From NCBI GenBank assembly GCA_002787235.1, contig PCWG01000033.1:126438-190437 (forward strand): a stretch of 64,000 bases of DNA, in the 5' to 3' direction. The translations under genes and the position numbers were made by a program. How positions within the stretch are numbered: position 1 is the first letter of the stretch; every line of letters begins with the position of its first letter. The notes beneath the pieces are model-generated. The model had not been told where the DNA came from, made no database searches, and saw nothing but the letters and a program-made list of their open reading frames with translations. This document shows, one piece after another, positions 10,815 to 31,056 of the stretch. Source of the stretch: Nitrospinae bacterium CG11_big_fil_rev_8_21_14_0_20_45_15. Its GTDB lineage: Bacteria > Nitrospinota > Nitrospinia > Nitrospinales > VA-1.

Positions 10815-11789
10815 ATGGGAATTATCAGAGGTGGCGAAGCCGAATATGAATCGTCCGAGCCTTCTGTTGAAGAAAAGAGAGAACAATTAGAAAAACTGAT
10901 TCAAGCGGAATTGGACAAAGACCCGGTTTCACTTTCTTTGACTGGAAAATATTATGCCGACGAAGCGGCAGAAATCATTGCGGGTTTGGACTTGCTTTGT
11001 GATGTAAAAGTTCTGAATTTGAAAGACAACCAAATCAGCGATCAGGGTTTCAAATTTTTAATGGAGTCCTCGGTCCTGAAAAATCTTCGTGAATTGAATC
11101 TTGACATCAATTATATTTCAGATGAAGGAATCACAGCAGTCGCAGATTCTGATTCAATTCTAGTAACGGAGCTCCAAAAGCTATCAATCTCTGAAAATAA
11201 TTTGACCGATACGGGGGGCAGGGCATTGGTCCTGTCAAAACATTTCTCAAAACTGGAAGAGTTGGACTTGGGATGGAATGAGATCGGTAATGATACAGCC
11301 GTCGCTTTGGGAGAAACAACAACCCTGCCATCTTTAAAAAAACTGGAACTGGAACGCGGTTACATCAATTCGGAAGGTATCAAAGCATTTTTGCAGGGTG
11401 AAGTCGCAGAACACTTGGAAGCGTTGAATTTAACCTCGAATCAACTGGATGATCCGGCTGTCGAGTTATTAGCCACTTCCTCCAAATTTTCGAAATTGAA
11501 GAGTTTGCGTCTATCTCAAAATCTGATTGGTGATGCCGGTTTGAAGGCGTTGGGAAATTCCACTACGTTGAGCAGTTTGGAACATCTCTTTTTGGGCAGA
11601 AATAATTTTGGCAAAGAGGGTGCGCAAGCGGTGCACGACACTAAAACCCTGGTCAATTTAAAAACGTTATTTCTGCAAGAAGGTGTGGAAATCACACCAG
11701 GAATAGTAAATTATTCAAGACCCGAATTGCTACGCCCGGATGATCCTGAACTATCGAAAGAACACGGGGGTGACTTAAAAAAACTATAG
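10815..11789 (+). CDS. Leucine-rich repeat protein (ribonuclease-inhibitor type)
   Basis: 324 residues with about eight LRR units of the form LxLxxNxIxDxGxxxL, for example LNLKDNQISDQGFKFL and LRLSQNLIGDAGLKAL. The ~26-28 residue unit is typical of ribonuclease-inhibitor-type LRRs, used for protein binding. No signal peptide, so probably cytoplasmic. AAAAGGAG lies before the ATG. The N-terminal ~55 residues are charged and not repeated. Two further LRR genes of the same type lie at 12722 and 14508. Partner and function are unknown. Confidence 0.8.
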   Translation: MGIIRGGEAEYESSEPSVEEKREQLEKLIQAELDKDPVSLSLTGKYYADEAAEIIAGLDLLCDVKVLNLKDNQISDQGFKFLMESSVLKNLRELNLDINYISDEGITAVADSDSILVTELQKLSISENNLTDTGGRALVLSKHFSKLEELDLGWNEIGNDTAVALGETTTLPSLKKLELERGYINSEGIKAFLQGEVAEHLEALNLTSNQLDDPAVELLATSSKFSKLKSLRLSQNLIGDAGLKALGNSTTLSSLEHLFLGRNNFGKEGAQAVHDTKTLVNLKTLFLQEGVEITPGIVNYSRPELLRPDDPELSKEHGGDLKKL

Positions 11790-11936
11790 TGGCAATACCG
11801 TTTTGAAATAAGCAGATCCGATTTGCGCTGAATTTGTGACAGATTTTTACAACAACGAGCAGGTCTCTTGAAAGTGGTTTTTACCGGGAATGTGGGCTAC
11901 GATTTCAATTGAATTTGAAAATTACGGGGGATTGGA

Positions 11937-12695
11937 ATGAAACGGGAAAGTTTATATGCCGAAAAAGTTTTAACGCATACGCCAGTACAAAATATAAACA
12001 TGCTGTTTTGGGCGACTATTATGTTTTTAATTTTCGGTTATTTTTCCCAAGTACAGGCGGCTCCCCACTTTGCGACTTTGGATAAAGTGAACGGCGAAGT
12101 TGTTGTGTTGAAAAGCGACGGTTCTCCTATTGCGAATGGTAAAGACGGCATGCCAGTAAGACCCGGACAAATTGTCAAAACCTCTGGGCCGAATGCAGTG
12201 ACGGATGTTGTTTTGTTTGATGGGAGCCGAATACGATTGTTGCCAAGTTCAGAAGCCAGATTTTCTGTGAAAAAGAAAGAAGAGAAACATAATATTCAGA
12301 TTGATTTGATTGCTGGAAAAATTTTCAATGCTGTTCAAAAAAATAAAAAAAGCGGACATTACGTAGTTAAAACCCCCTCGTCTGTCGCTGGATTTAAGGG
12401 CAAAGTATTTTCAGCAGAACTCAATAAAGAACAATCTGTCTTTATGGTTCAGGATGGGAAGCTCAAAGTTATCAATCCCCACGAAAAAAATAGACAAGCT
12501 GTCTATGTGACGAGTATGAATAAAACCACGACACAGGCAGTACAGGCACCCTCAGAGTCGACTCCATTATCTGCTGAAGAGATTGCCATGTTTGACATTC
12601 TCAAAGACATTGAAGTCGACATCAAAATAGATATACAGGGTGATACAGAAAGTGTTATTCGCGAAGATACTTCAGTTCCCGGCGCATTGGAGTGA
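11937..12695 (+). CDS. Exported FecR-domain protein
   Basis: 252 residues. After a positively charged leader of about 24 residues comes a membrane-spanning signal segment (LFWATIMFLIFGYFS) ending near VQAAPHF. The mature part has the FecR pattern: VNGEVVVLKSDG, a stretch like VRPGQIVKTSG, LFDGSRIRLLPSSEARF and a C-terminal YVVKTPSSVAGFKGKVFSAEL. FecR domains are periplasmic beta-rich modules, often in signalling or surface proteins. No sigma factor or TonB receptor is nearby, so classic iron signalling is not supported. Confidence 0.75.
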   Translation: MKRESLYAEKVLTHTPVQNINMLFWATIMFLIFGYFSQVQAAPHFATLDKVNGEVVVLKSDGSPIANGKDGMPVRPGQIVKTSGPNAVTDVVLFDGSRIRLLPSSEARFSVKKKEEKHNIQIDLIAGKIFNAVQKNKKSGHYVVKTPSSVAGFKGKVFSAELNKEQSVFMVQDGKLKVINPHEKNRQAVYVTSMNKTTTQAVQAPSESTPLSAEEIAMFDILKDIEVDIKIDIQGDTESVIREDTSVPGALE

Positions 12696-12721
12696 AGTGT
12701 GGACGGTAGGGAGTTGATTCT

Positions 12722-13381
12722 TTAAAATACTTTGAGTGTCTGTAACTTGGAAAGTTTTGGAGACTCTCTGAGAGCAGCTTTAACGCTTGGATCTTTTACC
12801 CGATTTCCCCCCAGATGAAGATAAGTCAGGTTAGAAAAAGCATCGGAATTGGCAATTGCCAAAGCACCTTCTTCGCCCACGCGATTGTCCACCATATTTA
12901 GAGATTCGACTTGAGTGAGCCAGGGCGATTGCGCTAAAGCTTTTGCACCTTCTGCGGTGATGCCGTTGCATTCAAGATTCAAAGTTTTGACTTCAGAAAA
13001 CAACTCAGAGTTGGCAACTATCTTTGCGCCCTCATCCCCAAGGTTGTTTGATCCCAGATGAAGGTAGATTATTTTCGATAGTACTTTTGATTGACTCAAT
13101 ATGCGAACCCCTTCCGGACCGAGATCGTTGTGCGTGATGATCAAGGTCGTCACGCCACTGAGGTGTTCAAAAGAAGCAATGAGTTCGGCAACTTTGATAC
13201 CGTGATCTTCTTCAAGCTTACCGGTTTTAACGAAAGTATAGCCATCCTGAACTTTTAGGATGGTTTTGTCTTTGATGTTTTCGTAAACGATTTTCTCCCA
13301 CGGTGACATGACCAGACCTTTGCCACCATAATTGCCACCATCGTTTACAAGTTCCTCCCAATTTTTAACTTTTTCTTTCAT
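12722..13381 (-). CDS. Leucine-rich repeat protein (ribonuclease-inhibitor type)
   Basis: 219 residues with about five LRR units such as LHLGSNNLGDEGAKIV and LNLECNGITAEGAKAL, starting near residue 75. The first ~70 residues are not repeated and contain WEKIVYENIKDKTILKVQDG. No signal peptide. It resembles the LRR proteins at 10815 and 14508 in repeat style (the NxxGDEGAxxLA pattern), so the three probably arose by duplication. Convergent with the FecR gene. Function unknown. Confidence 0.78.
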   Translation of the reverse strand: MKEKVKNWEELVNDGGNYGGKGLVMSPWEKIVYENIKDKTILKVQDGYTFVKTGKLEEDHGIKVAELIASFEHLSGVTTLIITHNDLGPEGVRILSQSKVLSKIIYLHLGSNNLGDEGAKIVANSELFSEVKTLNLECNGITAEGAKALAQSPWLTQVESLNMVDNRVGEEGALAIANSDAFSNLTYLHLGGNRVKDPSVKAALRESPKLSKLQTLKVF

Positions 13382-13393
13382 AGTGACACAGGT

Positions 13394-13861
13394 TTAGCGT
13401 TTGAGACGTTGGGTATTTGCACAACCGATTTCGTTACCGAGTTCGCAAGCCATCGTATAATATTTGATCGCAGCTTTTTGGCGTCCTTCTCTGTATTTTA
13501 AGGAACCTATATTTGCGCAAGCACTGTCGTGTTTTGCCTCGCAAGCTTTTGCGAAGAGTTTGAATGCATCTTTCCAGTCCTGGCTGTTTTGCAAGCCTCT
13601 TTGTTGAGTCAAAATACCGCCAATATTGCATCCATCCATATCATTCAGTTCACAGGCCTTAACGTAATAAATAAGCGCAGATTTGTTGTCTAACTCGACA
13701 GTTCTAAGACGCTGGCCCATTAGAAAACACGAGCGAGAATCACCTTCTGCACATCTTGTTTCAAGTGATCTTACGATATCATCATCATCAGCCCATACAT
13801 TATTACCGGAAACAAATAAAAAAATGATTGTTACGAAAAGTGCAGTCGAAATTTTTTTCAC
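13394..13861 (-). CDS. Exported Sel1-repeat protein, cysteine-rich
   Basis: 155 residues from a GTG at 13861, chosen because AAGGAAAA lies upstream and the protein then begins with a normal signal peptide (KKISTALFVTIIFLFVSG, cleaved near VWA). A longer ORF from 13924 puts 21 unsuited residues ahead of it. The mature part has Sel1/TPR-like units with paired cysteines: CAEGDSRSCFLMG, CELNDMDGCNIGG, CEAKHDSACANIG and CELGNEIGCANTQ. This resembles Helicobacter cysteine-rich (Hcp) proteins, in which each repeat holds a disulfide. Likely periplasmic; partner unknown. Confidence 0.75.
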   Translation of the reverse strand: MKKISTALFVTIIFLFVSGNNVWADDDDIVRSLETRCAEGDSRSCFLMGQRLRTVELDNKSALIYYVKACELNDMDGCNIGGILTQQRGLQNSQDWKDAFKLFAKACEAKHDSACANIGSLKYREGRQKAAIKYYTMACELGNEIGCANTQRLKR

Positions 13862-13983
13862 AATGTTTTCCTTCCCATTATCAATTAGGAAAAACAAAAA
13901 GCCGAAAGTTTCATTTTTTTTCAACTTAGGCTATTATCACGCGGTTAGAATACCATGAAACATTTTAAAACCAATCTCAATTA

Positions 13984-14505
13984 ATGAACATAATACTAAT
14001 AGGCTATCGCGGTACTGGAAAATCTTCCATTGCACGTTTATTGGCGCGGAGGATCCAGCGCAATTCGATCAGTTCGGATCAGGTGATCGTAGACCAGGTG
14101 GGCAAAAGTATCCCAGAAATTGTGCAAGAAGTAGGTTGGTCGGGCTTTAGAAAAATAGAGTCAGATGTTATAAAAAGTATATCTGATTCTACTCAGGATG
14201 GGGTCATTGATTGTGGCGGTGGAGTTCCACTGAATGATGAAAATATGATCGAGCTGAAGAAAAGCGGAAAATGCGTTTTATTGACTGCGGACATTGAGGC
14301 TATCATCAAAAGAATTCGTCAGGATCCCAATCGGCCCAGACTTTTGGAAGGCATGACCTTTGAAGAAGAACAAAAAAGAATTTTAGAGGAAAGGGAACCG
14401 AAGTACAAACAAGCGGCCGATTATATTTGTGACACCACTAAGGCCCCTCCTCATGTTACTGTAAGAAAAATTGTAGAGTATTTTAAACGCCATTCCTGGA
14501 TTTAA
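13984..14505 (+). CDS. aroK: Shikimate kinase
   Basis: Phosphorylates shikimate in the pathway to chorismate. A Walker A motif, GYRGTGKSS, lies at residues 7-15. The substrate-binding CGGGVPL segment is near residue 78, and the lid region is NRPRLLEG. The shikimate-binding Asp is kept in SSDQ, but the residue two before it, usually Asp, is Ser here. 173 aa, normal length. An LRR gene starts three bases after the stop, so the two are probably co-transcribed. aroA lies elsewhere, at 56.5 kb. Confidence 0.9.
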   Translation: MNIILIGYRGTGKSSIARLLARRIQRNSISSDQVIVDQVGKSIPEIVQEVGWSGFRKIESDVIKSISDSTQDGVIDCGGGVPLNDENMIELKKSGKCVLLTADIEAIIKRIRQDPNRPRLLEGMTFEEEQKRILEEREPKYKQAADYICDTTKAPPHVTVRKIVEYFKRHSWI

Positions 14506-14507
14506 AG

Positions 14508-15308
14508 ATGCCAAGCTCTTTATTTGAAAGTCTTCTTGAAAATAGTATGACCCTGATTCTTCCCGAGTACAGCGACGACACAGCCATGGTCGTCAGCGAA
14601 GAGGCTATGTATGCCGAATCGGGCGATAGTGGACCACAGTATAAAATGCAGTTGAATGACAAGGAAGTCATCATCGAAGAGTTAGAAGATATGGTGTGCT
14701 TCGGAAAAATTCGTTCGGTGGTGGAATTGCAAATGGATAACAACGACTTTGGTGATGCAGGGGTCGAATTCCTGTCGCAAGCTGAAGCCATATCTCAATT
14801 GACTCTTTTGTCTTTTAAAGGCAACAAACTGACAGCCGTCTCGGCCCATCATCTCGCAAATTCAAAAACCTTAGTGAATTTGAAAAAGCTGTATCTGCAA
14901 AATAATTCCATCAATGCAGAAGGCGTTCGTTCTTTGGCAAATTCGACAACGTTGTCAAAACTTCAACTCTTGTACTTGAAGGAAAACCCTCTCGGCCCCG
15001 AAGGGGCTCGCGCACTTGCGGATTCTACTTGCTGGAAGGATATGCGCGCACTGTATCTGCAAGGCACACGCATTGGTTTGGAGGGACTGAAGTTTTTGTG
15101 TCAGTCTGAGATGATGAGGACGGTAACGACCTGGTCTCTGGATAACAACCGGCTCGGCGATTCTGCTTGTGAGATTTTGGCGCAAAGCGAGGTTTTAGAG
15201 AATGTGGTTTCGATTGATTTGTATGGCAACGGCATTTCAGAAAACGCGGCAGAAATCATTAAAGCGTCCCCGTATCTGAAAAAGCTGCGGGCTTTGCATA
15301 TCGACTGA
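14508..15308 (+). CDS. Leucine-rich repeat protein (ribonuclease-inhibitor type)
   Basis: 266 residues with about seven LRR units, for example LYLQNNSINAEGVRSL, LYLKENPLGPEGARAL and IDLYGNGISENAAEII. The N-terminal ~60 residues are acidic and non-repetitive. No signal peptide. It begins three bases after aroK, so transcription is shared. Third member of the local LRR family with 10815-11789 and 12722-13381. Function unknown; the fold usually serves protein-protein binding. Confidence 0.78.
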   Translation: MPSSLFESLLENSMTLILPEYSDDTAMVVSEEAMYAESGDSGPQYKMQLNDKEVIIEELEDMVCFGKIRSVVELQMDNNDFGDAGVEFLSQAEAISQLTLLSFKGNKLTAVSAHHLANSKTLVNLKKLYLQNNSINAEGVRSLANSTTLSKLQLLYLKENPLGPEGARALADSTCWKDMRALYLQGTRIGLEGLKFLCQSEMMRTVTTWSLDNNRLGDSACEILAQSEVLENVVSIDLYGNGISENAAEIIKASPYLKKLRALHID

Positions 15309-22958: not shown

Positions 22959-23417
22959 TCAAGCTCCCTCGCAATGGCACAGTTCTCGGATGTAGTTGAC
23001 GAGTCCGGTGATATCGGCGTCTTTGAGAGTGTTGCCCCAGGCGGGCATGCAAGGTGCTCTGCCAACGGCGAGGCCGCCCAGTTTGATGGCTTCGAACAAC
23101 TGTTGATCGGTTCTCGTTTCGAGATAGTCCGCTTTGGTATGGTTGCGTGGCGGCACGGCCAATTGCAAGGCATTCATGCCGTCACCTTTGCCTGTGATGC
23201 CGTGACATTGGGAACAATACCATTGATAGGTGTCGCGTGTTTTCTGCGAAACCGGCGCGGGTTTTACCACTTCGGGAGCAGGGACAAAAGTCTCGTGAGG
23301 AACCTCTGCGACGGTAGGGGGTGGTTCTCTATGGACGCTTTCATCGCTATCATTCGTACAAGCGGAGAGCGTAAGGAGAATGCTGGTCCCTAAAAATTTT
23401 AGCCAGATGCTCGTCAT
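22959..23417 (-). CDS. Monohaem cytochrome c lipoprotein
   Basis: 152 residues. The lipobox TLSAC puts a lipidated Cys at position 20, so it is membrane-tethered in the periplasm. A Pro/Val-rich linker follows, then a class I cytochrome c domain with CSQCHG (68-73) and the C-terminal MPAWGNTLKDADITGLVNYI, where the Met is the likely distal ligand. It ends with an unusual CHC before the stop. The start overlaps the upstream dihaem gene by four bases. It is the last gene of the multihaem operon and may hand electrons to a membrane or oxidase partner. Confidence 0.87.
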   Translation of the reverse strand: MTSIWLKFLGTSILLTLSACTNDSDESVHREPPPTVAEVPHETFVPAPEVVKPAPVSQKTRDTYQWYCSQCHGITGKGDGMNALQLAVPPRNHTKADYLETRTDQQLFEAIKLGGLAVGRAPCMPAWGNTLKDADITGLVNYIRELCHCEGA

Positions 23418-24070
23418 TTCATATTTTCCTTTTTAAGAGTCATTATGTATTGAACGAGTTTGATGGCAGTTTCCTGATCGAGATCAAAGCGAGGCATTCT
23501 GCCTTTACTGCGATATTTTTCTGGAGATTGAAGCCAGTTGAAAATCCATTGCGGTTGCAGTCGAGCCCCTGCGTTGAACAGGGAAGGGCCGGACTCACCG
23601 CCATGTGGTTTGCCAGCAAGATTGACACCTTTATGGCAGGCACTACAACTGAAATTTCTTTCAAAGAGAATTTTTGCCCTCACTTTTTTCCCTTTGGACA
23701 AAGGTTCGCCGAAATTAATGGGTGTTTCTGGTTCGAGAAGTTTGAGAGTCAAAAGAACATCTGCAACTTCATCCGCGACTTTTTCGGGTAAGGAAGGATG
23801 CGGTTGAGGAGTGATCGCTTTGGGGAAATCCATTCGACCGCTGTAGCCGTTGAGTCGGATGATGTGGGGATTGCGCAAAAATTCCCGCAACCAGGGCTCT
23901 TGAAATTTTTCACCAGCGTAAAAGAGATCGGGAGCGAGGTTTTGTTCTTTATCGCCAGAACTCAAACGGTGACATTGATCGCAATGATTTTCTTTTAACA
24001 GGCTAATATCTGCATGCGCATTGGTTGCCCAAAAAAACAGGACACAAATAAAAAGCCGATACAGGGTCAT
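23414..24070 (-). CDS. Dihaem cytochrome c
   Basis: 218 residues with a cleavable signal peptide (RLFICVLFFWATNAHA) and two haem motifs: CDQCH at 30-34 and CSACH at 142-146. Each is followed by a cytochrome-c-like domain, the second ending in RMPRFDLDQETAIKLVQYI with a Met that may be the sixth ligand. The spacing suggests two fused class I domains. ATGA overlaps join it to the multihaem gene upstream and the monohaem lipoprotein downstream. Probable periplasmic electron shuttle. Confidence 0.87.
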   Translation of the reverse strand: MTLYRLFICVLFFWATNAHADISLLKENHCDQCHRLSSGDKEQNLAPDLFYAGEKFQEPWLREFLRNPHIIRLNGYSGRMDFPKAITPQPHPSLPEKVADEVADVLLTLKLLEPETPINFGEPLSKGKKVRAKILFERNFSCSACHKGVNLAGKPHGGESGPSLFNAGARLQPQWIFNWLQSPEKYRSKGRMPRFDLDQETAIKLVQYIMTLKKENMK

Positions 24071-26523
24071 CGGAAATTCCCTTCATTGAAGAACGGTGTT
24101 TGACCGATTGGAGCGGTTTGTGTGGGCAGATTTTGAGGTTGCTGATCCTTGAGCAATTCCAGCTCCTGCTCAAGTTGTCTTTCCTTTCTGCGTCGTCGTG
24201 TGTCGTAGGGGAACTCGGTCCTTTGCAGAAGTCGAGGGAATTGGGATTCTTTCAGACTCAGAAATCGATAAGCGCGATAAGCATCGGTTGTTCCCAGTAA
24301 GGCCATGGCTTCCTCGGCATTTAAAAAACGTGCCAGACCGGGCGGGTAAGGAGTCTGCAGGGCGCGCCCGTCAGGGGTGATCATTTGTTTTATTTGGAAT
24401 GCCGGGTCGTAATTGGGGTCTGCATAAGATGCATCGCTGGCGATATTTTTCATTGTCGATTCACCGAGGCCTGCGGCTAATGAATTCTGGTGACAGCTTT
24501 CGCAGGGCCGGGCATTTTTTCTAATTGTATGAGGGGCATAGGGTCGCATCAGGAGACCGGGTTTGCCATCCTGCGTTTGGGACGCATGAAGTTTTGTGGT
24601 CCCTGATTCCTTTAGGAAATACTGGTAATGTGGTTTCATTATCGAATATTTGTCACGTGCATTTTTCCCAAGAATCATAATGTTCCATGCAGTTTCAATA
24701 AATGAGTTCCCACCTTTGACGCCAGATTCCTGCATGGCTTGTTCTTCGGAGCCGGGAGAGGGTGTTACGATCAATCCCCATTCGCTTGCCGTCCAGCGCG
24801 CATGGCAGGTGTGGCATTCGATTTTTTCCATGTGTCCTGTGGGGCGATGGCCTACGGGAACTTCTATATCTTTGAGCACCGGGATGATGTGACGGTGACC
24901 GGTTACTTTTGAATAAAGCACCCAGCGGTTTTTTTCTTTTTTAATATGATTTAAAACCCGACCGCTGGAAGTCGCTAGCAGGACATCGTCTTTTTTAATT
25001 TTCTGATCAAGATTGGGTGTCTCGGAAATTTGTTTCCAAATAGCCTTTGCTTTGGGATCATTGCTGGTCAGTTGAAACGATTCTGGCGGTTTAAGGTGTG
25101 TGCCGTGACAATCCTCGCAATGAATTCGTGTCTCTTCTGCAGGTGATGACTTGATTTCTTCTCCCGTGTGGCAGTCGATGCAGTGCATACCACGCTCTCG
25201 GTGGATGTCGGGCAATAATAATTGGTGTTCCCTGCCATGGAGTACGGGTTTTTCGCCTTCGACCGCTTTGCTTGAGGGAAGCGAAGCTTTTGCAAACCGT
25301 CCTTCAAACTCTGATCCCACACTGTTTTGACTGTGGCAAGTTTCGCATTGCAGGCTGGGAACGGCACGGGTGAATTTATGCAGTAACGGAAATCCACGCG
25401 GGTTTGTCTGACTTTGATCAGCGTATTTTTTTAAAAAACGATTGGAACGATTTTCTATTTCTTTGCGTTGGACATGTTGGATCGCCAGATCGTGACTCAA
25501 GGAACGACCGTCGCTTGCATACACCATGTGACATCCTGCACAGCCTTTAGCGCGATAGTCGCCGGGTCGATTCCAGCCTTTCGTGTCGAGATGGCATTGA
25601 CTGCATTTCGATTGAATGAATGTTTCTGCCTCTGGAGGTGTTGCAGTTTTTGGGGCAATGGTTGTTGTCTGATTTGCTGGAGTATCGGATGCTGGAGGCA
25701 AAACTTCGTTCAAATTTTCGTGTGATGGGCTAGACGTTGCCCAGGCGTAACGTACCGAATAGGCAATTGCAGAGGGTGTTGATTTTGCGGATCGGTTCAT
25801 TTTCTCAATTTGATCGGCATGGCACTTTCCACAAAATTCTTTAACGTGCTCGGGAGCGGAAGGGTTGGCGATAAGATCCGTGTGCGCGTCTTCAAAATTC
25901 TTTTTCCGCGAATTGCCTTTGTGGCATTTGCGACAGCTCCAGTTATGATTCTTATCGATGGCTTCGATGCCCTGATGACATGAAAGACAGCGTGAGTTTG
26001 GATCTTTGAATTCGATGTCCTTAAACAAATCTTTGATAGAAAAATTTGATTGTCGGTAATAGTTTTCTATGAATTTCCGCGAGTCGCCATAAGACTCAAA
26101 TTGGGTCCCTTCAACGGTAACACCTGGCTTGAGAATGCTTTGATAAGTACCTCCCGGACCGCGCAAGAAGGGAAAGGGGTCGAGCAGGTCTTCCGGTGTG
26201 ATAAAGGGTTTGTCTAATGCCTGTGGTGGCTGGGCCATTTCCTTTTCCAGAGGCTGGTAGGACGGGAGGATGTCGTTTTCGCGGATGATGGGGCTTTCAA
26301 ATGGACTGGCCTCATTGCCTGATGTGAAACCCTCTTGGATAGGATCTTTTTTTTCTTCGCCAGAAAAATCCCAAAATACATTGGATAGATTCTGGGCCAA
26401 CTGCATGGGTGATGCAGTTTCAATTTGCGCCAGACTCTGTGTTTGATCCTGGGCAAAAAGCAGGGTTCCCTGAAACAGGGTCACACTCAGCAAGAGAATG
26501 GTTATAAATCGAGTCGGTATCAT
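24067..26523 (-). CDS. Decahaem c-type cytochrome (MHC2)
   Basis: 818 residues with a signal peptide (FITILLLSVTLFQGTLLFA) and ten CxxCH motifs, in order CLSCH (179-183), CRKCH, CGKCH, CSQCH, CAGCH, CETCH, CIDCH, CEDCH, CHTCH and CESCH. Residues 27-170 and the last ~100 carry no haem. No membrane anchor is seen, so it is periplasmic or secreted. Haem order and flanking sequence match the 12-haem protein encoded just upstream, so the two are paralogues. Start and stop overlap neighbours by four bases. It is expected to move electrons; donor and acceptor are unknown. Confidence 0.9.
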   Translation of the reverse strand: MIPTRFITILLLSVTLFQGTLLFAQDQTQSLAQIETASPMQLAQNLSNVFWDFSGEEKKDPIQEGFTSGNEASPFESPIIRENDILPSYQPLEKEMAQPPQALDKPFITPEDLLDPFPFLRGPGGTYQSILKPGVTVEGTQFESYGDSRKFIENYYRQSNFSIKDLFKDIEFKDPNSRCLSCHQGIEAIDKNHNWSCRKCHKGNSRKKNFEDAHTDLIANPSAPEHVKEFCGKCHADQIEKMNRSAKSTPSAIAYSVRYAWATSSPSHENLNEVLPPASDTPANQTTTIAPKTATPPEAETFIQSKCSQCHLDTKGWNRPGDYRAKGCAGCHMVYASDGRSLSHDLAIQHVQRKEIENRSNRFLKKYADQSQTNPRGFPLLHKFTRAVPSLQCETCHSQNSVGSEFEGRFAKASLPSSKAVEGEKPVLHGREHQLLLPDIHRERGMHCIDCHTGEEIKSSPAEETRIHCEDCHGTHLKPPESFQLTSNDPKAKAIWKQISETPNLDQKIKKDDVLLATSSGRVLNHIKKEKNRWVLYSKVTGHRHIIPVLKDIEVPVGHRPTGHMEKIECHTCHARWTASEWGLIVTPSPGSEEQAMQESGVKGGNSFIETAWNIMILGKNARDKYSIMKPHYQYFLKESGTTKLHASQTQDGKPGLLMRPYAPHTIRKNARPCESCHQNSLAAGLGESTMKNIASDASYADPNYDPAFQIKQMITPDGRALQTPYPPGLARFLNAEEAMALLGTTDAYRAYRFLSLKESQFPRLLQRTEFPYDTRRRRKERQLEQELELLKDQQPQNLPTQTAPIGQTPFFNEGNFR

Positions 26524-28868
26524 GGAGTAGAGGGGGCTTGTTCGAGAATGCGTTTGCGCAAATTTTGATGATCTATGGTGCTTTCGAATTTGTAGCTTTT
26601 CCCCATGTTTTGAAATATGGGATCATTGTATTGATCGTGACAGGGGAGACAATTACCGACTTTTAGAATACGGTTGATTTCTCTTTGATTGAAAGGTCTT
26701 GCGTCGGGCTGGTTCGTACCGGCGAGAATTTTCCCTTTCATGGTGACTTTTGCTGTCGGGGAATGGTCTGATTGTTGTGCTATTTCTGCCGTATGATCAA
26801 TGGCCTTCATTCGATCTTCTCTTCCAGATGGATTCTTTCCCAAAGAAAAATCTCCATCACCCAGTCCCAGGGTTTGGGGGTTGAGATGGCAATCCACACA
26901 GGAACGGACCTGCCTTCGTACGGAATGAGGATTCATGGCATAAGCCAGATTAGAGCCGGAACGACTTTCCGGATTTGAAAATCCCCACTGAAGGTAGCTC
27001 CCGCTTTGCAGGCCCTGGGCATTGATTGCGGGAAGCGGTGTTCCTTGTTCATCCAGAAAGGTGGCTTTGCGCAGAGGTTGTGATAGCACAGGTGCTACTT
27101 TTCCGCGCGGGCCGATCATCAAAGCGGGTGGTGTCAATTTCATCTTGAATTGAGACGATCCCCAGAAGGCAGATGAATGATTTTCGGGTGTTGTGAGACT
27201 TTGGTCAAGGTCGGTATGACATCCTTGACATTGCGGTGTCCATTGAGAGTGGCAGGCCGTGCATTCCAGCTTTTGAGAATGACCGGGAATCGCATGCGCC
27301 CAGTTTTTATTGATTTGTGGTGCGATGTGCCTGCGGCCACTCTTTTTTTCGTACACAACAATATTGCCGTCTTCCTCTTTAACGTTGCTCATCATTTGAT
27401 TTTTTGCCGTGAGTGCCAACCTGTCGCCAACACTGTTTTTGCCATTCTTATAATGACGACTCAGTCGAATGGCATTGCTTGCAGGATCTAAAATAGGTGC
27501 GGTCAGAGCGGGGTTTTTATTGTCGCCATGGCATGTTTCGCATCTGATTTCTACAGCTTGATATTGCTTGGAATATATATTGCCGTCGCCCATGATGTCA
27601 AATTGTGTGTGGCAATCAATGCAGTCAAATCCCTTTTGAAAATGGATGTCGAGTTTTCCTTCTCCCGCTTCTTTGATGGGTGTATTGACTCGAAAAATGG
27701 AGGTCACGGGCTTGATCTCTAAAGATGTTTCTTCCTGGACTACAGATTCAGGGGGTGCGGGCTCGGATGATTCAGAATTCTCAAATCCGTTAATTTCAGG
27801 CGTATTTTTTGACAGAGCATAAGTCTGATGGCATTGAACACAAACCCCGGCACGGGGAAGGGCTTTTATTTTATGAAACGCTGGTTTACCCCGCTTTGTT
27901 CGAGATTGAGTGGGATCGTCCCCTTTGTATAATCCATCGGCTTCATAGTCCACATGACAGGCGGCGCATCCCTGAGATCTGAATCCATGGGAGCCGGACC
28001 CGGTGCTATCCAGATGACACTGTGTGCATTTCTCCTGGAGCAGGGAATCGGCAATATGTCCTGTTTTTGAAGAGCTCTGCGGAGTTGCCGGAGAGTTGCG
28101 TAAAGGAAAATGTCCGAGCGGAGCCAGTCGATCCAGTGCTCCTTCTGTGTATGGAATATTCCCATCTTCGTCGGCGATGGATGTTACGCCGTAGCGCGCG
28201 GTTTTCTCGATTTGCCCACCCCATTGGAAGCGCAAGCCTGAAAAAATTCCGGCAAGAGTCCCCATCATGGATTTCTTGACTCGTTGAATATGGTTTTTAT
28301 CGGGATTGGTATGCCCGGCATGGCAATACAATTGCCCACATGATTTTGCAACAACGTTGAGACTGGATGGATTGCCACGATCATTTTTTATAGAGGGATC
28401 ATAGATCAAACTCGAGTGTGCTTCTGTATCTGTTGTGGCATTGCCATCGCCGCCGTGGCAGACCGTACAGCCAAAGGAACGTGGGTGACCGGGTCCTGCC
28501 TCGGCAATGCCATCGTGGCAGGTCAGGCAGAGTTCCTTGCTGTATCCGCGATAATCAGAAACTTTGACGTGTGGGTAATCCGGCAGAATTGCGGTTACAT
28601 CCAGTTCCTTGATTTGTACAGGTCGTATCTGCCATTGAAAACGCTCTTCAGGCAGAGATGATTTATTCGCTTGATTGATGTTGTAGAGTTTTTGCCAATA
28701 GTGCCAGTCCTTTTCTTCGGCGCAAGCGAGTTGCGCGACGCACAGTGTCCAGAAGAGTAACGCCAGAATAAGAGTGACTAATTTTATATGAAAACTTTGT
28801 TTCAAAAATCTCTCTTGAGTGCGAGCTGTTAAGGGTGGGCGTGCAAAAGAAAATTCAATTCTATTCAT
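26520..28868 (-). CDS. Dodecahaem c-type cytochrome (MHC1)
   Basis: 782 residues with eleven CxxCH motifs (CLTCH 114-118, CTVCH 134-138, CTQCH 281-285, CAACH 301-305, then CVQCH, CIDCH, CETCH, CTACH, CQGCH, CVDCH, CLPCH) and one CX4CH (CGQLYCH, 177-183): twelve possible haems. A signal segment at about residues 29-50 ends in LACA, with a long basic leader before it, so a later start (TTG near residue 22) is possible. The ATG overlaps the Hpt gene's stop. Compared with MHC2 it has two additional haem motifs (CQGCH and CLPCH). Confidence 0.9.
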   Translation of the reverse strand: MNRIEFSFARPPLTARTQERFLKQSFHIKLVTLILALLFWTLCVAQLACAEEKDWHYWQKLYNINQANKSSLPEERFQWQIRPVQIKELDVTAILPDYPHVKVSDYRGYSKELCLTCHDGIAEAGPGHPRSFGCTVCHGGDGNATTDTEAHSSLIYDPSIKNDRGNPSSLNVVAKSCGQLYCHAGHTNPDKNHIQRVKKSMMGTLAGIFSGLRFQWGGQIEKTARYGVTSIADEDGNIPYTEGALDRLAPLGHFPLRNSPATPQSSSKTGHIADSLLQEKCTQCHLDSTGSGSHGFRSQGCAACHVDYEADGLYKGDDPTQSRTKRGKPAFHKIKALPRAGVCVQCHQTYALSKNTPEINGFENSESSEPAPPESVVQEETSLEIKPVTSIFRVNTPIKEAGEGKLDIHFQKGFDCIDCHTQFDIMGDGNIYSKQYQAVEIRCETCHGDNKNPALTAPILDPASNAIRLSRHYKNGKNSVGDRLALTAKNQMMSNVKEEDGNIVVYEKKSGRRHIAPQINKNWAHAIPGHSQKLECTACHSQWTPQCQGCHTDLDQSLTTPENHSSAFWGSSQFKMKLTPPALMIGPRGKVAPVLSQPLRKATFLDEQGTPLPAINAQGLQSGSYLQWGFSNPESRSGSNLAYAMNPHSVRRQVRSCVDCHLNPQTLGLGDGDFSLGKNPSGREDRMKAIDHTAEIAQQSDHSPTAKVTMKGKILAGTNQPDARPFNQREINRILKVGNCLPCHDQYNDPIFQNMGKSYKFESTIDHQNLRKRILEQAPSTP

Positions 28869-29163
28869 AAGTGATGCAGATGTTTTCCAGGTATTCGATC
28901 AATTCGTTGATGGTGTCCTTGATTTTTTGATTCTCCTTACCTTTTGCTGAAATTTCCAAAGTATGCCCCATACGGCTGAGAGCATCGAAGCCATAACCGC
29001 CACCCGATCCTTTCAGCTTGTGACCCAATTTTTGAATGGCGTAAAAGTCTTCTTGTTCGAGAGCATTTTTTAAGAGGCCAATATCTTTTTTTCGATTATC
29101 AAGATAACCGGGGATCAGGTCTTCGATGGTTTTATCAATTTTTATGTGGAGGGTTTTCCCCAT
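28861..29163 (-). CDS. Stand-alone Hpt (histidine phosphotransfer) domain protein
   Basis: 100 residues forming a single Hpt four-helix bundle. The phosphorylation site is His48 in LGHKLKGSGGGYGF, followed by the usual LSRMGHTLE helix. Hpt proteins pass phosphoryl groups between response-regulator receiver domains in phosphorelays. No histidine kinase or regulator gene is adjacent. Instead its stop overlaps the start of the 12-haem cytochrome gene (ATGAATAG), so it is probably translated with the cytochromes. It has no signal peptide, so it stays in the cytoplasm while its operon partners are exported. Confidence 0.88.
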   Translation of the reverse strand: MGKTLHIKIDKTIEDLIPGYLDNRKKDIGLLKNALEQEDFYAIQKLGHKLKGSGGGYGFDALSRMGHTLEISAKGKENQKIKDTINELIEYLENICITYE

Positions 29164-29329: not shown

Positions 29330-29695
29330 TCAAAGGGGATTGGGAGGGTAATCGTAATCATATATCTTTTGTCCTGGTTCCGAGTTTTTGGATCCCACTC
29401 CCTGGGCTGAAGATAAATAATTCAGAATTCGTTTCCGGATTTCAGGGCTCAATTCCATCAAGCCCTGTTTTTCCTGCATCCATGTGATGGTTTCGTCCCA
29501 GCGTTCTCGACTCATGTGGTTCTGTCGAATGATGGCTGAGGAATGACAGGCTGTACAGGTTTCTATCACAAGGTCGCGCTCTGCACCGGGTAATAATTCC
29601 GTATCGGCCCAAGCGGGTACGGAAAACGATATCCATAAAAACAGGAAAAAAATTTCTCTAAAATAATGGATTTGAGATTTTATGGCGGCCTTCAT
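29330..29695 (-). CDS. Monohaem cytochrome c, sulfite-dehydrogenase small subunit-like
   Basis: 121 residues with a signal peptide (FFLFLWISFSVPAWA) and one haem motif, CTACHS. The segment after it, RQNHMSRERWDETITWMQE, is typical of the small cytochromes that accompany sulfite-oxidising molybdoenzymes, and the Met in this region or in GLMEL may be the second haem ligand. It starts 47 bases after the molybdoenzyme stop on the same strand. It would take electrons from the molybdenum subunit and pass them into the periplasmic cytochrome pool. Confidence 0.85.
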   Translation of the reverse strand: MKAAIKSQIHYFREIFFLFLWISFSVPAWADTELLPGAERDLVIETCTACHSSAIIRQNHMSRERWDETITWMQEKQGLMELSPEIRKRILNYLSSAQGVGSKNSEPGQKIYDYDYPPNPL

Positions 29696-29742
29696 AACCT
29701 TTCCTTTTCAGCGACTGAAACGATGAAAACAATCAACCCGAA

Positions 29743-31056
29743 TCAGGTCACGTTGATGGCGATTCGGTGCATTGCGTTGTTGAGATAGCCTTTGGGATTC
29801 CATCCCGGTACGACCATGGGTTGCATGGTGCCCTGACTGTCGGTCGCTCTCGCCCAAACTTCATAATAACCTTTTACGGCAAACTTGAGATTTACTTCCC
29901 AATCCTGCCATGCGTAGGGATTGATAGGATCTTTCAGGTTCGCGCGAATCCAGGTGGCTCCAAAATCATGGGACACATGCATATCCTGAACGCTACGGTC
30001 CCCTGCCCAGGCATGACCACGCACCAGAAAAGACTGATCTTTGGTTACCGTCATTCGGCTTTGCGGGTGAGTGATGAGAGATTTCACCGGTAGAGATTCA
30101 ATGATTTGCATGTCCTCATCGGGTACATGTGTTCCCGGAGGAACGGGGTATTTAGGGGTTCGATAGGCCTGGCCGGTCATTTTAGGTCCGTCGTGAACTC
30201 TGTCGCGGACGAAGATGCGCTTCAACCATTTTATCGAAGTCGATGCAGGCCAACCCGGAGTCACCACGCGCGCAGGAAATCCGTGCAGAGCGGGTAAGGG
30301 CTTTCCGTTCATCTCCCAAACAATCAGAGTGTGGTTATCCATTGCCTTGGCGATCGGGGTCCCGCGTGAAATGGTTACCTTTTCGGGGTCACCGCTCAAA
30401 TGGATGTCACTGCCGTAATATCCGGTATAAATAGCTGTGTCCTTGAGCCCGACTTCTCGTAATACGTCCTTCATCCGGACACCAGTATATTGGGCGCAAC
30501 CGACCGCACCGAAAGTCCATTGGTTTCCTTTAGCCGGCGGCTGATATCCCGCTCGACCGTTGCCGCCACATTCAATTTGCAGGGCATAGCTGTAATGCTT
30601 GAACTGCTTGAGTTGATCCAGAGTCAGTATTTTGGGTTGATGAACTTCTCCATCAATGGTGAGTGTCCAGTCTTTCGTATTGTCGTCATAAGCGGATCCT
30701 GGAACCAGACCGTTGTTGCGGACGAAGTGACGGTTGACCGGGGTGATGGAGTCATTCAGTAAAGTAGGGGGCGTCTCGGCATTCAAGGGACGGTCGTTGA
30801 GGACGCGCAAACCATCCTTTCCCTCGATTTCAAAATTTTGTGGAGATTCTGCCAAAGCGACCGGTATCAGGCCGGCTGGCATTTTCCCAAAAAAAGGGAT
30901 ATGCGCTCCAACCGCAAGGGTGATGGCCGCGAGGCCGCTTTTTTTTAGAAATCCGCGACGCGAGAGAGGGCTGGCTTTCCTTCCCCATACGGTTGCATCC
31001 GCTTTTTCCGGGTCGCTTTCATACAATTCTCTCAATCCACGTTCTTTTTTTTTCAT
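29743..31056 (-). CDS. Sulfite-oxidase-family molybdoenzyme (SorA/SoxC-like)
   Basis: 437 residues. A twin-arginine signal, SRRGFLKK at 32-39 with a hydrophobic stretch after it, sends the folded protein to the periplasm. The oxidoreductase molybdopterin domain contains the Mo-ligand cysteine (C163) in QIECGGNGRAG, plus GYYGSDIHLSGDPEKV and LHGFPARVVTPGWPA. The C-terminal Mo-co dimerisation domain has VRGHAWAGDRSV. I chose the ATG at 31056, preceded by GGAAGG; the ORF could open at 31113. Substrate is most likely sulfite, but the family is broad, so this is inference. Confidence 0.87.
   Translation of the reverse strand: MKKKERGLRELYESDPEKADATVWGRKASPLSRRGFLKKSGLAAITLAVGAHIPFFGKMPAGLIPVALAESPQNFEIEGKDGLRVLNDRPLNAETPPTLLNDSITPVNRHFVRNNGLVPGSAYDDNTKDWTLTIDGEVHQPKILTLDQLKQFKHYSYALQIECGGNGRAGYQPPAKGNQWTFGAVGCAQYTGVRMKDVLREVGLKDTAIYTGYYGSDIHLSGDPEKVTISRGTPIAKAMDNHTLIVWEMNGKPLPALHGFPARVVTPGWPASTSIKWLKRIFVRDRVHDGPKMTGQAYRTPKYPVPPGTHVPDEDMQIIESLPVKSLITHPQSRMTVTKDQSFLVRGHAWAGDRSVQDMHVSHDFGATWIRANLKDPINPYAWQDWEVNLKFAVKGYYEVWARATDSQGTMQPMVVPGWNPKGYLNNAMHRIAINVT

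Follow-up and report, generated by a model that had tools for sequence, protein, structure and literature searches.

A stretch of 64,000 nucleotides (nt) of contig PCWG01000033.1 (the window), belonging to the genome of Nitrospinae bacterium CG11_big_fil_rev_8_21_14_0_20_45_15 (labelled G000), harbours five consecutive open reading frames (ORFs) for one stand-alone Hpt phosphotransfer protein and four c-type cytochromes, all on the minus strand. In the direction of transcription these are hpt (28861-29163; 100 amino acids), mhcA (26520-28805; a 12-haem cytochrome with a predicted Sec-type signal peptide), mhcB (24067-26523; a 10-haem cytochrome), dih (23414-24070; a dihaem cytochrome c) and mono (22959-23417; a monohaem cytochrome c lipoprotein with a CBB3-type fold), the names mhcA, mhcB, dih and mono being those of the present analysis. 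The first-pass annotation had described five minus-strand genes for Hpt, 12-haem, 10-haem, dihaem and monohaem lipoprotein products, and both the ORF check of the window, which returned all five at the coordinates it had given, and the domain matches agree with that description. The five-gene operon is conserved in the order Nitrospinales, with a link to phosphorelay signalling that, as judged from gene content and order, is likewise conserved but loose.

The four cytochromes contain 25 haem motifs (12 + 10 + 2 + 1), matching the approximate number in the first-pass annotation. MhcA carries 11 CXXCH motifs and one CX4CH motif (residue 177), MhcB ten, Dih two and Mono one. In alignments of 23-25 homologues, each motif was found to be invariant or absent from at most one sequence, a conservation far beyond chance: every MhcA motif was retained in 24-25 of the 25 homologues, each MhcB motif was missing in one homologue at most, and both CXXCH motifs of Dih were retained in 23/23. 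In Mono, the CXXCH was present in 23/23 sequences and Cys20 of a lipobox-type LSAC motif in 22/23. Each large cytochrome contains a further 8-11 near-invariant histidines, which are likely to be haem ligands. Several CXXCH motifs thus occur together with an export signal and are kept between species, the signal peptide being judged from the sequence alone, and the four proteins are c-type cytochromes with predicted covalently bound haem. Closely spaced CXXCH pairs were also seen at 13 places in the genome, six of them inside the operon and others at C4:31340-32542, C4:6451, C37:407540 and C2:72025.

Comparison with the NCBIfam models showed that MhcA matches the ExtM model NF040943 with 292 bits (positions 18-586 of 599; E value 8e-87), the equivalog cut-off of 800 not being reached, and that MhcB matches ExtM with 166 bits (cut-off 800) and ExtN with 89 bits (cut-off 200), both under the equivalog cut-offs. 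The orthologues of MhcA and MhcB in other families showed the same matching behaviour. Profile-profile comparison of MhcA with MhcB aligned 560 columns with an E value of 8e-77, and hence the two are paralogues; two of the motifs of MhcA, at residues 547 and 740, have no equivalent in MhcB. By these profile matches, MhcA and MhcB are distant relatives of the 12-haem ExtM and 10-haem ExtN of Geobacter. Among the small cytochromes, Dih matched PF00034 (39 bits) and, in its second half, the SoxX model TIGR04485 (43 bits, under the cut-off of 61), and Mono matched PF13442 (38.7 bits). Searches of PDB sequences returned weak local matches alone for MhcA (6lod and NrfA entries) and no match for MhcB, and a plasmid search yielded a single weak, partial match. 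The ExtN (NF040967) and ExtO (NF040968) models, of lengths 415 and 416, gave nearly identical scores and spans against MhcB. The ExtO model may be mislabelled, the published ExtO being a 14.1 kDa Rieske protein.

The Hpt protein matched PF01627 with 35.7 bits (cut-off 24.6), and its candidate phosphoacceptor is His48 (GHKLKGSGGGYGF). Across 21 intact Hpt orthologues His48, Gly52, Gly54, Tyr57 and Gly58 were invariant, so that an HxxxG-type phosphoacceptor site is present throughout, and the protein is a putative phosphotransfer protein with a canonical histidine. No evident signal peptide was found, which points to a cytoplasmic location; any tie between Hpt and the haem proteins would therefore have to be exerted through regulation. 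Relative to the closely related locus L035, hpt showed a ratio of nonsynonymous to synonymous substitutions (dN/dS) of ∼0.09, indicating purifying selection near the level of the cytochromes, this value to be read with caution as dS is ∼2 and near saturation. The genome encodes four Hpt matches (two in short ORFs) vs 52 HATPase and 74 receiver matches. Since several of the kinase ORFs also carry receiver matches, plausible partners for free Hpt proteins exist.

The first-pass annotation had read the five genes as overlapping end to start throughout, and this description held for three of the four junctions. The overlaps at 26523/26520, 24070/24067 and 23417/23414 are 4-nt ATGA overlaps, as in many relatives. 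The overlap 28868/28861 between hpt and mhcA is doubtful, because the ATG at 28868, with which the longest mhcA ORF begins, lacks an evident Shine-Dalgarno sequence and would place 21 additional codons in front of the signal peptide, and because in most relatives the two genes are separated by 42-84 nt. Two relatives showed short or overlapping hpt-mhcA junctions (15 nt and -4) when the longest-ORF start was taken. A TTG in the same frame at 28805, with the purine-rich AAGAGAG in front of it, would leave 55 nt after the hpt stop and is, from the sequence context and the spacing in relatives, the likelier start of mhcA. A promoter and terminator scan gave counts near those of shuffled sequence and was not used.

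To follow the operon across the phylum, 77 Nitrospinota genomes, 64 of them Nitrospinales, were searched with an mhcA profile and then with an Hpt profile. A match to the mhcA profile was found in 57/77 genomes, comprising 56/64 Nitrospinales (counted from the table) and one class-level outgroup (G071). The latter encodes a lone ExtM-related ORF of 591 amino acids with 12 motifs (L113:2034-3809), the rest of the operon being absent from the short contig. The closest homologues among named records belong to Nitrospinaceae and Nitrospina metagenome-assembled genomes (MAGs); in one of these, OFTM96 (locus L035), the gene order is identical to that of the window and the five proteins share from 70% (Hpt) to 76% identity. 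A match to the hpt family was located upstream of mhcA on the same strand at 43/56 loci, or at 43/51 informative loci once G012, G022, G035, G060 and G063 were set aside because the gene was fragmented or the contig stopped at it or close by (assumed for G060). The adjacency of Hpt and cytochrome genes is thus found across the order and is not peculiar to this genome.

The same Hpt subfamily, with profile E values near those of the operon members, also occurs in outgroups that are without these cytochromes. Among these outgroup loci, hpt adjoins a gene of the REC-GGDEF type in L108, L109 and L112 and receiver-domain genes in L114; in L110, L111, L115 and L116 its immediate neighbours included no recognisable receiver gene. 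Owing to this occurrence in outgroups, at times beside receiver genes, it is reasonable, though unproven, to suppose that the operon took up a signalling gene older than itself. Within the genome of the window, the REC-GGDEF ORF that matches best (C39:130432-131340; 41% identity) has no informative neighbours and is a lead only. Resolution was poor in the tree of Hpt domains, where many forks stayed open, and orthology was not argued from it. Diverged Hpt paralogues in which the active-site histidine is replaced were noticed at L118:6327-6656 (LADIMIGSG) and L119:8749-9069 (LADNLNGSG), both with genes for a response regulator and an XRE-type protein close by; these are possibly phosphorelay proteins without phosphotransfer.

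Immediately upstream of hpt in the window lies a pair of minus-strand genes encoding a SorB-like monohaem cytochrome c (29330-29695; NF052246, 25.8 bits, cut-off 93) and a SorA/SoxC-type molybdopterin sulfite dehydrogenase-like protein (29743-31056; PF00174 and PF03404; NF052245 SorA, 226 bits, cut-off 600). This sulfite-oxidase pair (29330-31056) had been noted as lying next to the module. The pair adjoins the operon in the window and L035 alone and is not beside it in G001 of the same genus; the position is mostly taken in other genomes by genes for an NHL-repeat protein (14/21 neighbourhoods), a SnoaL-like protein (13) or a glycogen-debranching-type enzyme (10). The linkage is therefore lineage-specific, and the pair was rejected as a part of the module. 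In the genome of the window, the NHL-repeat and SnoaL-like pair that stands beside the operon in most relatives is found elsewhere (C32:189443-191536, L133), and for this reason the arrangement in the window looks like a rearrangement. Downstream of the operon, genes for a DUF1015 protein, a YihA-type GTPase and a ferredoxin, among others, are widely kept. Farther off in the window, the region 10815-15308 contains three leucine-rich-repeat genes at short distances from one another (10815-11789, 12722-13381 and 14508-15308), among which a FecR-domain gene and one for a shikimate kinase are interspersed.

The relation of the operon to nitrite oxidation was considered next to the distribution of NxrA. 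The best PDB match of the NxrA of the window's genome is 7b04, nitrite oxidoreductase subunit A. Genome G015, which is 97% complete at 1.7 Mb, contains an NxrA 94% identical to it, and profile searches of G015 gave no match to mhcA or hpt. ORFs of NxrA length with TIGR03479 matches are also present in the outgroups G055 and G059, both without mhcA. Since NxrA is thus retained where the cluster is lacking, the operon looks accessory to nitrite oxidation.

Taken together, these observations give a slight preference, barely above an even chance, to a periplasmic electron relay built on an ExtM/ExtN-type pair with small carriers, accessory to nitrite oxidation and co-encoded with a cytoplasmic Hpt that takes part in a phosphorelay. 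According to this reading, the cytochromes would be exported by the Sec pathway and then loaded with haem. The 22-haem pair of MhcA and MhcB (12 + 10) would conduct electrons between an inner-membrane donor and an acceptor or partner. This path is an inference; what the sequences establish is the gene order, the invariant haem motifs with probable histidine ligands, the common descent of the pair and its distant homology to ExtM/ExtN. Dih and the membrane-anchored Mono would serve as the smaller carriers by which the acceptor or partner is reached. Hpt, being unable to touch the periplasmic haems, would act as a phosphoryl shuttle linking hybrid histidine kinases to a response regulator, which may be of the REC-GGDEF type, and its synthesis together with the cytochromes would let the signalling branch follow operon expression.

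Several observations weigh against parts of this reading. With respect to Hpt, the gene is absent beside the cytochromes in eight informative genomes (G010, G021, G029, G031, G037, G040, G050 and G068) and is broken by frameshifts or stops, whether real or assembly errors, in four of the 43 loci (G007, G020, G061 and G066). At five of these loci (G010, G021, G029, G037 and G040) a tblastn search detected no remnant, and no hpt was present in the gene calls of G031 and G068, G050 being judged by profile search alone. A functional tie between hpt and the cytochromes is therefore not obligatory, and this loss in lineages that retain the cytochromes would be expected if Hpt were a passenger, i.e., a general phosphorelay protein for hybrid kinases with no functional link to them. 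Such a reading also agrees with the presence of the same subfamily, often beside receiver-domain genes, in class-level outgroups without the cytochromes, with the several hybrid-kinase-like ORFs that would need free Hpt proteins, and with the hpt-mhcA junction in the window, which is probably a 55-nt spacer and not an overlap. However, same-strand adjacency has persisted at 43/51 informative loci in several families despite changing genes further upstream, and in G045 hpt remains beside dih (L117:8913-10230, hpt followed directly by dih) though mhcA and mhcB are absent, being unmatched at the cut-off used. A passenger role is a substantial possibility, to which we would give about a third of our belief. 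At the other extreme, a dedicated Nitrospinales phosphorelay co-encoded with the 25-haem relay, whose signalling branch, possibly ending in a c-di-GMP (cyclic dimeric guanosine monophosphate)-making REC-GGDEF protein, is governed by, or itself tunes, a second electron route beside nitrite oxidation, appears quite improbable. Of the electron-transfer module tied to a signalling protein that had been put forward, the multihaem operon preceded by hpt is real across the order and the tie to signalling is supported in part, whereas membership of the sulfite-oxidase pair is not supported.

With respect to the relay itself, no porin, outer-membrane barrel, Rieske protein or cytochrome b was found among the Pfam-scanned neighbours in the window (most genes from 10815 to 43211), and no porin, Rieske protein or cytochrome b among the recurrent neighbours in relatives, so that neither end of the putative wire could be identified. 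AlphaFold2 models of MhcA and MhcB, computed with 24 and 21 aligned sequences, had a mean predicted local distance difference test (pLDDT) score of 50.7 and 45.2 and supported no architecture. The accessory relation to nitrite oxidation rests mainly on the single highly complete genome G015, and a gene missing from one draft is weak evidence. The negative result for a porin or outer-membrane barrel counts against the proposal that the operon contributes to extracellular electron transfer, as a conduit leading to or from minerals or other cells, which a study on multihaem clusters of Nitrospinaceae MAGs (PMC11995701) had suggested for those clusters; the distant homology to Geobacter Ext proteins and the NHL-repeat gene upstream in most neighbourhoods favour that proposal, which we nevertheless regard as unlikely. 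Alternatively, one large cytochrome could be an enzyme, reducing selenite or tellurite or an oxyanion of nitrogen or sulfur, with the rest supplying electrons. The Geobacter cluster of ExtM and ExtN includes the porin gene extI, implicated in selenite and tellurite reduction, and the models of NrfA and of octahaem tetrathionate reductase gave local matches. These matches, however, are weak and lie in or around a c7/c3-type region, no CXXCK motif is present, and the consulted part of PMC5877670 does not demonstrate catalysis by ExtM or ExtN, which leaves a catalytic role rather improbable.

No known nitrite oxidisers of the oceans are described as more abundant than Nitrospinales (PMC8026999), whose electron transport is understood only in part. 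An operon that spans the order, carries 25 haem sites and is seemingly dispensable for nitrite oxidoreductase in one nearly complete genome suggests that an uncharacterised second route for electrons exists. The homology to ExtM and ExtN offers a concrete starting point for its study, and cultured relatives exist. The adjacency of Hpt, if functional, would represent an unusual genetic tie of a phosphorelay with a periplasmic redox module. A literature search combining Hpt with multihaem terms returned no report of such a link. The module had been termed undescribed; for the cytochromes this is too strong, since they are distantly related to ExtM/ExtN and multihaem clusters of Nitrospinaceae have already been noted (PMC11995701).

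Among known systems, the sections consulted of the Nitrospina gracilis genome paper (PMC3578206) and of the Nitrospinae paper (PMC8026999) deal with an octahaem bc-linked protein and with cytochromes linked to nitrite oxidoreductase (NXR), not with this cluster. In the text available, the 2025 study of nitrifier MAGs reported that OFTM96 and others contain clusters in which three or more genes are multihaem, the number of sites reaching 12; it saw no resemblance to proteins known from metal cycling and did not settle on a role (PMC11995701). The present operon likewise comprises three or more multihaem genes, with a maximum of 12 haem sites, and is carried by OFTM96, and it is likely that those clusters correspond to it; the account differs in that no Hpt gene or ExtM homology is mentioned in that text and that few MAGs are named, as against the order-wide spread found here. 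The Hpt protein resembles the stand-alone Hpt of His-Asp phosphorelays in having the PF01627 domain, the canonical histidine with a Lys-Gly motif and no other domain; unlike the stand-alone Hpt genes of several class-level relatives, it is located upstream of cytochromes and not beside a response regulator. The neighbouring pair resembles the catalytic SorA and haem SorB subunits of SorAB sulfite dehydrogenase, but the scores are under the equivalog cut-offs and adjacency to the operon is confined to the close lineage of the window. The nearest parallel, based on the NCBIfam models and on PMC5877670 as far as consulted, is the extHIJKLMNOPQS cluster of Geobacter sulfurreducens, in which the genes of ExtM (12 haems) and ExtN (10) are neighbours and a Rieske protein, a cytochrome b, a membrane protein and a lipoprotein cytochrome are encoded further on. 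The Nitrospinales operon differs in that the scores are far under the equivalog cut-offs (800 and 200), in that no rhodanese, porin (ExtI), selenoprotein cytochrome, Rieske protein or cytochrome b (ExtO, ExtP) was found nearby, and in that dihaem and monohaem cytochromes and hpt are present instead. In both clusters, a 12-haem gene and then a 10-haem gene stand side by side with a lipoprotein cytochrome later on, MhcA matching almost the whole of the ExtM model and MhcB matching both ExtM and ExtN.

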